Part shown: positions 12,820-16,858 of the stretch, piece by piece
How the letters are laid out: the number at the start of each line of letters is the position of its first letter
Position numbering within the stretch: position 1 is the first letter of the stretch
Assembly: GCF_001423295.1 (NCBI RefSeq)
Contig: NZ_LMNG01000034.1
Location: 243,291-307,290, forward strand
Direction: 5' to 3'
Length of the DNA stretch: 64,000 bases
From: Methylobacterium sp. Leaf112
Lineage (GTDB): Bacteria; Pseudomonadota; Alphaproteobacteria; Rhizobiales; Beijerinckiaceae
Notes under the pieces: model-generated
Told to the model about the DNA's origin: nothing
Databases searched by the model: none
The model's input: only the letters and a program-made list of their open reading frames with translations
Made by a program: the position numbers and the translations under genes

Positions 12820-14001
12820 TCAGGCCTCGGCGTCCTCGTGCAGGGTGTCCTCGATGTAGAGCTGGGCGAGCAGCACCTTGATCACCGCCATGAGGGGCAG
12901 GGCGAGCGCGATGCCCCACAGGCCGAACAGCACGCCGAGGATGAGCTGCCCGGCGAAGATGGTGGCGGGCGGGATGTCCAGCGCCCGCTTCTGGATGTAC
13001 GGCGTCAGGCCGTAGCTCTCCAGGGTCTGCACGGCGAGGTAGACGCCGATGGCGCCGAGCAGAGCCGTGAGTCCCGAGGCCAGGGCCGCCAGCACGATCA
13101 CCACGCCCGCGATGAGCGGCCCGATGGTCGGGATGAAGGCGAGGAGGCCGGCCTGGAGGCCGAGGATCAGCGCCCCCCCGATCCCGAGGAAGCTCAGGCC
13201 CGCCCAGGTGCACAGGAAGATCACCGCCATGGTGATGAGCTGGCCGAACAGCCAGTGCCGCAGGGTCTCGCCCATGCCGTCGAGGAGGGCCCTGGCCCGT
13301 TCCCGGTGGCGGGGCGGCACGAAGCGCACGGCCCCGTCGCGGTAGGCCGCCGGATCGGCGGCGCACGAGAGGCCGAGGAACACGATGACCAGGACGTTGC
13401 CCAGGGCGCTGAACAGGGCGATCACCACACTGGCCGCGGGACCGAGGACGCTGCCGGCATCGGAGAGGATCGAGCCCGGACTCTCCATCGCACCCGAGGC
13501 GAGGCCGGCGAGGCCACCGGTCTTCTGGCCCTTCGGTTCGGTGGAATCCTTGTCGCCCTCAGGCGCGGCCTGCCCCTCCGGCGCCTTCTTGGGTGCGGAG
13601 AGGCCCGGCACGTCGATGCCGTAATCCTTGAGACGATCGCGCACGGTGCCGGCCTGCGAGGCCACGGTCTGACCGAGTTCGCGGCCCTGCTGCATCACCG
13701 TGGCGCCGCCGAACGCGATCATCGCCAGGCTCAAGCCCGCGAGCGCGAGACTGACGAGGCTGAGGCGCAGGCCGCGGCCGGCGGGCATCACCTTGCCGAG
13801 GAGCTGCGTGAGCCCATCGAGGAACACCCCGAGCAGGATGCCGGCGAAGACGAGGAACAGGGTCGAGACCGCACTCCAGGCCAGCGCCAGAAAGGCGGCG
13901 AACGCCACGATGGCGATGCCCGAGACGGCATGAGACCAGCCCCGCGGCTGCGGGCCGGCACCCTGGGGAGCCGCTTGGGAATCGGGCCTGAGGCTGGACA
14001 T
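12820..14001 (-). CDS. AI-2E family (PerM-like) membrane transporter
   Basis: The protein has 393 residues and about eight hydrophobic segments. The N-terminal pair is SGIAIVAFAAFLALAWSAVSTLF and the C-terminal block contains GPLIAGVVIVLAALASGLTALLGAIGVYLAVQ plus YIQKRALDIPPATIFAGQLILGVLFG, diagnostic of the family. Between segments lies a charged, lysine- and proline-rich loop (about residues 140-175) that is probably cytoplasmic. Members export autoinducer-2 or act as ion antiporters; the substrate cannot be told here. The start at 14001 is preceded by AAGGAGCT about 12 nt upstream. Confidence 0.88.
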   Translation of the reverse strand: MSSLRPDSQAAPQGAGPQPRGWSHAVSGIAIVAFAAFLALAWSAVSTLFLVFAGILLGVFLDGLTQLLGKVMPAGRGLRLSLVSLALAGLSLAMIAFGGATVMQQGRELGQTVASQAGTVRDRLKDYGIDVPGLSAPKKAPEGQAAPEGDKDSTEPKGQKTGGLAGLASGAMESPGSILSDAGSVLGPAASVVIALFSALGNVLVIVFLGLSCAADPAAYRDGAVRFVPPRHRERARALLDGMGETLRHWLFGQLITMAVIFLCTWAGLSFLGIGGALILGLQAGLLAFIPTIGPLIAGVVIVLAALASGLTALLGAIGVYLAVQTLESYGLTPYIQKRALDIPPATIFAGQLILGVLFGLWGIALALPLMAVIKVLLAQLYIEDTLHEDAEA

Positions 14002-14143
14002 GGAAATCGGGTGAGCTCCTTCGGATCGGGCGCAACCCGGCGCATGCGGGGCCGGCGGGCACAAGGTCCATCCGTCGGGTTGCCTGTGGATGCTCAGAGC
14101 AGGCCGCGCGAAAGCGGGTTCCGATTCTGCGACAAAAACCGGT

Positions 14144-14611
14144 TCAGGCCCATCGCGCGGCGGCGGCGTCGTCGGCCTGCGTCGCCTCGACCCAGCCGCC
14201 GATTGCGCCGCCGACGAGGTGCTCGCGCTTCCAGAACGGCGCCTGCGTCTTGAGGTAGTCCATGAGAAAGCTCGCCGCCTCGAAGGCCGCGATCCGATGA
14301 CCGGCGGCTGCCACCACGAGGACAATGCCGCCGCCCGGCGCCACGAGGCCGTGGCGGTGGATCACCCGAACCGCCTGGAGCGGCCAGCGGGCGCGGGCGG
14401 CCTCGACCACCCGGCCGATCTCCGCCTCGGCCATGCCGGGGTAATGTTCGAGTTCGAGGCCTGCGAGGCGCCCGTCCTCGTCGCGGCACAGGCCGGTGAA
14501 GGTCACGATGGCCCCGGCCCGGCCGTGGAGGTCGCGGGTCAGAACCGCGATCTCGTGCGCCACGTCGAAGGGCTCGGCCTGGATGCTGACGTCGGGGATC
14601 TGTGCAGTCAT
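14144..14611 (-). CDS. moaE: Molybdopterin synthase catalytic subunit
   Basis: MoaE inserts the dithiolene sulfurs into precursor Z/cPMP using thiocarboxylated MoaD. The protein has 155 residues, normal length. Conserved TFTGLCRDEDG, the ELEHYPGMAE block, RVIHRHGLV and the active-site lysines K121 and K128 in YLKTQAPFWKRE are present. I chose the ATG at 14611 because it gives the usual N terminus; an ATG at 14629 adds six residues. No moaD lies next to it. A user of the cofactor, the molybdenum hydroxylase operon, is encoded 26 kb away in this window. Confidence 0.94.
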   Translation of the reverse strand: MTAQIPDVSIQAEPFDVAHEIAVLTRDLHGRAGAIVTFTGLCRDEDGRLAGLELEHYPGMAEAEIGRVVEAARARWPLQAVRVIHRHGLVAPGGGIVLVVAAAGHRIAAFEAASFLMDYLKTQAPFWKREHLVGGAIGGWVEATQADDAAAARWA

Positions 14612-14803
14612 GGAAGCTCGCTGCGGCATGACGGTTGATCGAGGCGCGGCGACAGGAGCTTGCTAAAGCCCGCGCGTCACGCGACCCGTGTCCCGAACGC
14701 CCTTATCCGCCGCTTCGTGGCCGGGCATGTCCGCCCGGTCCCAAAGGACCTATATGCCCCTCGTCCCGGTCCGCGCCACCGGGCTTCGAAGGAGACCGTC
14801 CGC

Positions 14804-15823
14804 GTGACCCCCGACCTGATCCTGCCCCATGACGGGGTCCTCCCGGTCTTCTCCGCCCGTCCGGTCTGGTGCGGACGCGGCAGTACGGTGATCGGCACCG
14901 CCACCCTCGGGGCGCAGGCCTGGCTCGGGGACGACAGCGTGATTCGTGCCGACGGCCAAGTGGTGACCGTCGGTGAACGCTTCTGGCTCGGCCACCGCTC
15001 CACCGTCCACATCGCCACCAACACCTACGCGACCGTCGTCGGCGACCGGGTCACCGTGGGCCGCAATGCCGTGGTGCATGCCTGTACGGTCGGCTCGGAC
15101 GTTGTGATCGAGGACGACGTCATCGTCCTCGACGGGGCCACGGTAGAGGACGGCGTGCTCATCGAGGCCGGCGCGACGGTGTTCCCGCGCGCGCATCTGG
15201 CGGCGGGGTTTGCCTATGCGGGGAGCCCGGCCAAGCCTCTCCGCCCCATCTCCCTGCCGGAGATCGCCGAACGGGCCGAGCGTCTGCGCGAGGCGTCCGG
15301 CGACCTTCCTCCTCTGCCCGAGGCCGACACCCCCGAGATCGAGGCGAGCGTGTTCGTCGCCCGCACGGCCCGCCTGCGCGGCCGCATTGCTCTGGGGGCT
15401 GGGTCGAGCGTGTTCTTCTCGTGCGATCTGCAGGCCGAGGGCGGTGCCATCGTGGTCGGCGCCGACACCAATATCCAGGACAACACGGTGATCCGTGCCC
15501 GATCCGAAGGCGTCGTCATCGGCCGCGACACCACCATCGGCCACAACGTGCGGCTCGCCGATTGCCGCATCGGCGCCCGCAGCCTGATCGGGATCGGCTG
15601 CGTCGTCGCGCCCGGCACCGTGGTGGCCGACGACGTGCTCCTGGCGGCCGGTGCCACCACCGAGCCGGGCCAATTGCTGGAGGGCAGCCACCTCTGGGGC
15701 GGCCGACCTGCCCGGGTTCTAGGTCCCCTCGACGAGGACAAGCGCGCGATGATGACCCGCGTCGTCGAGGGGTACCGCGAGCACGGGCGTGCGTATCGCC
15801 TGGCGCAGGACGCGATGCAGTAG
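14804..15823 (+). CDS. Tandem gamma-carbonic-anhydrase-like left-handed beta-helix protein
   Basis: The protein has 339 residues with two hexapeptide-repeat (LbH) domains, about 12-147 and 180-325, joined by a charged helix-forming linker. Gamma carbonic anhydrases bind zinc with three histidines, Cam H81 and H122 from one subunit and H117 from the next. By eye, domain 1 keeps the H81 and H122 positions (H69 in STVHIAT; H92 in AVVHACTVG) but has R87 at H117. Domain 2 has R231, H247 and A252 at the same three places, so only the H117 equivalent remains. Domain 1 also keeps IRAD (R48, D50) and domain 2 keeps TNIQD (N223, Q225, D226). The ligand set is thus split between the halves. The GTG start has AAGGAG 9 nt upstream. 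Catalytic activity is unproven; it may be a scaffold or an acyltransferase-like protein. Confidence 0.85.
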   Translation: MTPDLILPHDGVLPVFSARPVWCGRGSTVIGTATLGAQAWLGDDSVIRADGQVVTVGERFWLGHRSTVHIATNTYATVVGDRVTVGRNAVVHACTVGSDVVIEDDVIVLDGATVEDGVLIEAGATVFPRAHLAAGFAYAGSPAKPLRPISLPEIAERAERLREASGDLPPLPEADTPEIEASVFVARTARLRGRIALGAGSSVFFSCDLQAEGGAIVVGADTNIQDNTVIRARSEGVVIGRDTTIGHNVRLADCRIGARSLIGIGCVVAPGTVVADDVLLAAGATTEPGQLLEGSHLWGGRPARVLGPLDEDKRAMMTRVVEGYREHGRAYRLAQDAMQ

Positions 15824-15924: not shown

Positions 15925-16548
15925 TCAGAGCGCCGGGGCGATCGCGTCGGCGTCCGCCTCGTCCTCGTCGATCTCTGCGTCGCCTTCGACCTCGTGGCCG
16001 AGGGCGCCGGAGATTTCGGCGAGATTGCGCGCGGCCTTGCGCAGGAGCTTGCGCAAGCGGCGGCGCTCCTTGCCGTCGAACCCGGCGAGCAGCTCCGCTT
16101 CGACCTCGTCTCCGATCCGCTCGATGGCCTCGGCCTTGGCAAGCCCCATCTCGGTCAGCCGGACACGTACGATCCGCCCGTCGCCAGCCTCGGCCCGCCG
16201 CTCGACGAAGCCGAGGGCAGCGAGGCGCGAAATCGTCTTCGACGCCGTCGGCGGGCGCACCCGGAGGGTGGCGGCCAAGTCGCCCATGGTCATGGTGCCG
16301 GAGGCCGCGAGTGCCTGGACCACCTGCTCCTGGCCCGCGAACAGATCGAGGGCCGCCAGCCGGTCGCCGACCCGAGAACGGTGAAGTCGGGCCGCCTGGA
16401 CCAGGGCCCAGCCGACACTCTTGGATCCAGGGACGCTCTTGGATCCAGGGACGCTCTTGGATCCAGGGACGCTTTTGGACCCGGGCGCGGTCTTTTCGGG
16501 GCCGTTCTTCGAACCCGGCGGGCGGATGCGCTTGTCCGACTTGCTCAT
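15925..16548 (-). CDS. MarR family transcriptional regulator with N-terminal PGSKSV repeats
   Basis: The protein has 207 residues. The winged-helix domain covers about residues 60-160, with recognition region MTMGDLAATLRVRPPTASK and wing ERRAEAGDGRIVRVRLT. The N-terminal about 45 residues are basic and low-complexity, containing four PGSKSV units encoded by an 18-nt tandem repeat. The C-terminal end is acidic (EGDAEIDEDEADAD). MarR proteins usually bind a palindrome near their own promoter and release it on binding a phenolic or redox ligand; none can be named here. The ATG at 16548 was chosen because the next upstream candidate adds 34 residues without family resemblance. It is divergent from rfbF. 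Confidence 0.85.
   Translation of the reverse strand: MSKSDKRIRPPGSKNGPEKTAPGSKSVPGSKSVPGSKSVPGSKSVGWALVQAARLHRSRVGDRLAALDLFAGQEQVVQALAASGTMTMGDLAATLRVRPPTASKTISRLAALGFVERRAEAGDGRIVRVRLTEMGLAKAEAIERIGDEVEAELLAGFDGKERRRLRKLLRKAARNLAEISGALGHEVEGDAEIDEDEADADAIAPAL
16423..16488. repeat. 18-nt tandem repeat inside the MarR coding region
   Basis: The unit GGATCCAGGGACGCTCTT occurs at 16423-16440 and 16441-16458, with a one-base variant at 16459-16476 and a degraded partial copy to 16488; half a unit precedes it. On the minus strand it encodes PGSKSV repeats. The unit length is a multiple of three, so copy-number change would keep the frame. Confidence 0.95.
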
Positions 16549-16858
16549 GGTCCGCTCGGTAGCCTTGGGGAGGTGAAGGGAAGGAGAGAGGCCGGCGGGG
16601 GATGGCGCGCGGTCCAGGACCGCCTCCGTTCGCTCGTCAGCCGCCTGCATTGCCGCGTCCTCTTCACATCATAGCGCGCAATCGGCGGTCGGGCGCCGGG
16701 GTTTCCAGACGCGTCCACCGCCGAACCGGCATCTGCCAGGGGAGTCGTGACGCCGATGTGACACGAGCCACGGTTTCCGCCCGCGTCCGCCTTGCCTGGA
16801 CGGGTAAGCCCCCCTCGACTAATCGTGGGCCGCGGAACGAGGGCGGACGCGGGAAACC
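16549..16858. promoter_or_regulatory. Divergent intergenic region marR/rfbF with a start-occluding inverted repeat
   Basis: About 310 bp without a gene. A purine-rich stretch with GGGAGG and AAGGAGAG lies near the marR start. An imperfect inverted repeat links 16772-16791 (GGTTTCCGCCCGCGTCCGCC) to 16841-16858 (GGGCGGACGCGGGAAACC): stems of 7 and 10 bp separated by a 3-nt bulge. The second arm ends at the base before the rfbF ATG and would cover its ribosome-binding region if transcription starts upstream of 16772. No convincing -35/-10 pair was found. Confidence 0.45.

Follow-up and report, generated by a model that had tools for sequence, protein, structure and literature searches.

The gene at 14804-15823 on the + strand of the window (the whole 64,000-nucleotide stretch that was analysed) encodes a protein with two γ-class carbonic anhydrase (γ-CA) domains, and it raises the question of whether two domains that each lack part of the zinc site could together hold one complete active site. 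The original prediction, made by eye, was that the halves are complementary, as if a single site were built only where domain 1 (D1) meets domain 2 (D2). The gene and its parts are as follows.

14804..15823, + strand: tandem γ-CA-like gene, 339 amino acids (P0001), from the translation; orthologues in 37 of 37 genus genomes searched
14789..14794, + strand: Shine-Dalgarno-like AAGGAG, 9 bases upstream of the GTG, read directly
14813..15301, + strand: D1, residues 4-166, a left-handed β-helix with a short C-terminal helix (151-165), from the NCBIfam profile and AlphaFold2
15323..15811, + strand: D2, residues 174-336, a left-handed β-helix with a long C-terminal helix (311-337), from the NCBIfam profile, AlphaFold2, and a structure match

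The GTG at 14804 is a good start because AAGGAG lies 9 bases upstream, the starts of homologues coincide with it, and one homologue has ATG there. Profile search and AlphaFold2 give two γ-CA domains with a short linker between them. The NCBIfam γ-CA model NF050158 matches two stretches of P0001 (5.7e-50), with a score that does not reach the model's 250-bit equivalog threshold, and D1 and D2 each match solved γ-CAs. The left-handed β-helix and C-terminal helix of the γ-CA fold are found in the models and structure matches. However, neither domain has the three His ligands, D1 having H, R, H and D2 having R, H, A at these places, and the full set is present only across D1 and D2. The proton-shuttle loop of Cam is missing from P0001, as it is from the CamH subclass, and so activity is not to be assumed. 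The gene is under purifying selection, with dN of 0.08-0.09 versus dS of about 0.55 in close pairs. Database records label the protein only as a gamma carbonic anhydrase (family protein) or as acetyltransferase-like.

The residues that distinguish the two domains, with the corresponding Cam residues, are listed below. The translation contains R48, D50, H69, R87, and H92 in D1, and N223, Q225, D226, R231, H247, and A252 in D2, just as they had been read by eye.

14945..14953, + strand: R48 and D50 (Cam R59, D61), invariant in D1 and lost in D2, from the homologue alignment
15008..15010, + strand: H69 (Cam H81), zinc ligand retained in D1, 72/72
15062..15064, + strand: R87, the Cam H117 position, lost in D1; R, E, A, S, T, N, or V among relatives, from the alignment
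15077..15079, + strand: H92 (Cam H122), zinc ligand retained in D1, 72/72
15470..15481, + strand: N223, Q225, and D226 (Cam N73, Q75, D76), invariant in D2 and lost in D1, 72/72
15494..15496, + strand: R231, the Cam H81 position, lost in D2, from the alignment
15542..15544, + strand: H247 (Cam H117), zinc ligand retained in D2, 72/72
15557..15559, + strand: A252, the Cam H122 position, lost in D2, from the alignment
15773..15775, + strand: Y324 in the D2 helix, equivalent to Tyr159 of γ-CaCA, with no Tyr at the equivalent place in D1, from column comparison (PMC12648627)

The register was taken from a single alignment of D1, D2, and 58 single-domain γ-CAs, in which D1 and D2 share the same column at each of the eight positions; the register assigned by eye was thus right. 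The split was counted over 72 distinct two-domain homologues of 33-88% identity, with the 58 single-domain γ-CAs as the reference set. Cam R59, D61, H81, and H122 are kept in D1 of all 72, and N73, Q75, D76, and H117 in D2 of all 72. By contrast, the counterparts vary: across the 72 proteins, the H117 place in D1 holds R (61), E (3), A (3), S (2), or others, the H81 place in D2 holds R (52), H (6), D (5), or others, and the H122 place in D2 holds A (44), G (12), or others. Each of the eight positions is kept in 56-58 of the 58 single-domain proteins. Three tandem proteins borne on unrelated plasmids show the same split, giving 75 relatives in total, and independent variation of the three histidines, which would have spoken against a shared site, is seen in none of the 72 distinct homologues or the three plasmid proteins. 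Chance or a misread register is ruled out by the coinciding columns and by the invariant residues set against varying counterparts.

The split is wider than the zinc ligands, with R59 and D61 on one side and N73, Q75, D76, and the helix Tyr on the other. When the 27 columns conserved in single-domain γ-CAs were compared in 27 cluster representatives, those conserved in D1 only were exactly R59, D61, H81, and H122. The columns conserved in D2 only include N73, Q75, D76, H117, and the C-terminal helix Tyr, together with structural positions that are explained by the greater divergence of D1. The helix Tyr is present in D2 of 26 of the 27 representatives, and the remaining one is a fragment that ends earlier. 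One exception was found on the 'lost' side, homologue L060, which has all three zinc histidines in D2; there is none on the 'kept' side. The split is genuine, and comparative evidence gives good support to its core reading: co-conservation in the 72 homologues and three plasmid proteins strongly supports the predicted complementary halves with one site where D1 and D2 meet. D1 also has conserved residues of its own near the site (window 14954-15013 region), G51, T67, and I70 in all and G63 in 25 of the 27 representatives, which are rare or absent in single-domain γ-CAs.

In Cam-type trimers, one subunit contributes H81 and H122 to the zinc site and its neighbour contributes H117 (PMC4519908, PMC7199487). 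A composite site fits P0001 because the sets retained by D1 and D2 mirror this division. From the pattern of conservation, we consider it probable that P0001 is a tandem (fused) γ-CA with one active site divided between its two β-helix domains. D1 would give the side with Cam H81, H122, R59, and D61, and D2 the side with H117, N73, Q75, D76, and the helix Tyr; we take the subunit side of N73, Q75, and D76 to be that of the Cam structure. A single zinc (or Fe/Co) could then be bound only at the D1-to-D2 interface, and the D1-D1, D2-D2, and D2-to-D1 interfaces would be without ligands in nearly all members. The Tyr of γ-CaCA is about 3.9 Å from the zinc, and the residues engineered at the Cam E62 and E84 places of that enzyme touch the adjacent subunit's helix (PMC12648627). 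For these reasons, a Tyr on the domain that carries H117 fits the composite site. L060 counts against it, as a D2-D2 site is conceivable in that protein.

AlphaFold2, run on P0001 with 27 sequences, gave a pLDDT of 95.3 and a pTM of 0.93, and D1 and D2 are predicted to dock in a defined arrangement, since domains lacking a fixed relation would be expected to score much lower over the whole chain. The docking seems not to depend on a rigid linker, because a 36%-identical homologue with a long disordered linker gave a pTM of 0.89. The D2 model matches solved γ-CAs with VIA Z scores up to 28.7. Among the matches listed, 3c8v_B is the sole chain that spans most of both domains together, with 292 residues at 3.2 Å (Z 27.9) for the P0001 model and 298 residues at 2.8 Å (Z 29.6, top rank) for the model of the 36%-identical homologue. 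This chain is from a putative acetyltransferase of Desulfovibrio desulfuricans G20. It resembles P0001 in being a solved two-helix chain that superposes on D1 and D2 at once, but its identity to the tandem γ-CA is about 15% and it is undetected by sequence. A description of 3c8v was sought and none was found; it may be an independent tandem β-helix protein.

How would such chains assemble? A three-domain ring is not evenly filled by two-domain chains, which counts against the composite site and had led to the suggestion that the assembly is novel. That idea is weakened by 3c8v, since a solved two-helix chain superposes on both domains. The D1-to-D2 contact could lie inside one chain, which the pTM favours, or between chains. 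Assemblies that would fit are a single chain whose two domains leave the third position of the ring vacant, two such units paired as a dimer, or three chains that build two mixed rings, each with a single site. The interface may lie within a chain and bind metal, and the reaction may be CO2 hydration or else a related hydrolysis by zinc-bound water, e.g., of a CoA thioester. A second γ-CA as the third member of the ring was considered and rejected: the organism's own genome has no other match to the γ-CA model above 41 bits, and the weak matches resemble other hexapeptide proteins. The window genome also has two β-CAs.

The named loci nearest to the window gene are from Methylobacterium, and the gene was found in all 37 Methylobacterium genomes searched, at 60-84% identity. 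The two-domain relatives are mainly in Alphaproteobacteria, with some in Beta- and Gammaproteobacteria. Within the order, seven sampled genomes from further families have such relatives, and elsewhere in the class so does one genus from a different family. Others come from marine Alphaproteobacteria, Bosea, Pseudorhodoplanes, and Burkholderiales and gammaproteobacterial MAGs (MAG host labels as deposited); three genes are plasmid-borne, in Xanthobacter, Agrobacterium, and Methylibium. D1 is monophyletic and so is D2 (support 1.0 and 0.997); the fusion and the split thus probably have a single origin, in a common ancestor, and have been retained since.

The plasmid copies lie in a common gene order. 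In Xanthobacter pXAUT01, Methylibium RPME01, and the Agrobacterium plasmid, the order is GntR, hcmB, acyl-CoA ligase, meaB, hcmA, the tandem gene, and cobalamin adenosyltransferase; by its layout, hcmB-hcl-meaH-hcmA in the published operon (PMC7176365), and by domain checks, this set is the B12-dependent 2-hydroxyisobutyryl-CoA mutase operon. In Methylibium, a gene for a 2-hydroxyacyl-CoA lyase is interposed (NF058623, above cut-off). Mutase-operon genes also adjoin the homologues L060, L061 (a mutase relative of 62% identity about 11 kb off), L073, L080, L087, L088, L089, L092, L093, L095, and L096 (at a contig end, where only the ligase is present). These homologues, with L154, L155, and L156, make the tandem γ-CA a common member of the mutase operon. 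In the neighbourhoods examined, no such genes were seen beside L062, L063, L072, L076, L083, L091, L094, L098, or the Methylobacterium copies; around the window gene there is no mutase operon, and the best mutase in its own genome is 44% identical. In a FastTree tree of the tandem proteins that included the plasmid copies, the two main clades each include operon-linked copies, and Methylobacterium is nested in one that has them (0.96). Given this distribution, linkage to the operon may be the ancestral state, with later loss. The mutase operon was rejected as an obligatory partner, since the tandem gene is present in only one of the six genomes of the order that encode a mutase of at least 74% identity.

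Upstream of the window gene, and divergent from it, are moaE (14144-14629, - strand) and a gene for an AI-2E family transporter (12820-14325, - strand). Their order beside the tandem gene is conserved through Methylobacterium and not elsewhere, and a function drawn from this neighbourhood was rejected, as the adjacency is limited to that genus. An 18-bp tandem repeat of 3.7 copies at 16414-16479 lies within a MarR-family gene (15925-16650, - strand), where it encodes repeated VPGSKS in the N-terminal part of the product.

Could the residues be kept for something other than a metal? As a scaffold or binding protein without metal, P0001 would have domains conserved for structure or to bind acyl-CoA or a partner protein, with roles other than metal binding for the retained His, Arg, and Asp. 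Many copies do lie within an acyl-CoA operon, and γ-CA-like proteins can be inactive (PMC7199487), as several single-domain ones are. However, the retained set is exactly the three zinc ligands with N73, Q75, R59, and the helix Tyr, each kept once, and a scaffold would have no reason to retain that set while the other copies drift, so we consider this explanation improbable. The simplest assembly of two-domain chains would be a two-layer trimer, with D1 and D2 as separate homotrimers that have no complete site and are both decaying. A D1 trimer would lack H117 and a D2 trimer would lack H81 and H122, leaving no selection on the ligands, yet these are invariant down to 33% identity; such an arrangement is hardly credible.

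A different question is which reaction the composite site would catalyse. It could be that of a PaaY-like zinc acyl-CoA thioesterase, clearing dead-end or mis-activated CoA esters. The operons contain acyl-CoA ligase and acyl-CoA mutase genes and, in Methylibium, that for the lyase, and the PaaY and CaiE models match 27 of 27 scanned members, although the window protein is below both cut-offs (112 bits against 319.6 for PaaY and 80.8 bits against 305 for CaiE). But the gene is kept across all the Methylobacterium genomes searched, while the window genome lacks the mutase, and N73, Q75, and R59, which are important for CO2 hydration by Cam, are invariant. We regard the thioesterase as a possibility to be taken seriously, if not one to be favoured, and give carbonic anhydrase a slight edge as the predicted reaction. 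A fuller scenario for the composite site is that three-fold symmetry has been abandoned for an open two-domain unit or dimer with one composite site per D1-D2 pair, after a single fusion, probably in B12-mutase operons, and with a role in CoA-ester catabolism; taken together, these steps are speculative and we hold them with some doubt.

A tandem γ-CA with a split site was described in none of the papers (open-licence literature) or database records that were searched. P0001 shares with the CamH subclass (YrdA, γ-CaCA) and with Cam of Methanosarcina the fold, the three zinc ligands, and R59, D61, N73, Q75, and D76, and its helix Tyr is of the CamH type; it differs in having two domains per chain, with every catalytic residue retained in one domain only. 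PaaY and CaiE are likewise γ-CA-like proteins from CoA-ester catabolic operons. PaaY is a single-domain protein with all ligands and has a CoA-thioesterase role. The 2-hydroxyisobutyryl-CoA mutase operon is the setting of many two-domain relatives but is missing in the window organism. The main text of PMC7176365 does not contain the word 'carbonic', and the tandem γ-CA is apparently an undescribed component of this pathway operon; generic record names hide both the split site and the operon membership. The closest parallel in unequal ligand loss is the γ-CA/γ-CAL heterotrimer of plant mitochondrial complex I, in which only one of the three interfaces is zinc-capable (PMC7447434, PMC7567890), although there the three subunits are products of separate eukaryotic genes within a respiratory complex, whereas here there is a clean two-way split in one chain. 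P0001 thus looks like a bacterial single-gene counterpart of that heterotrimer, one active site divided between duplicated domains and preserved in many lineages, which raises a concrete question of how a two-domain chain assembles and provides a natural test of an interface enzyme turning asymmetric.
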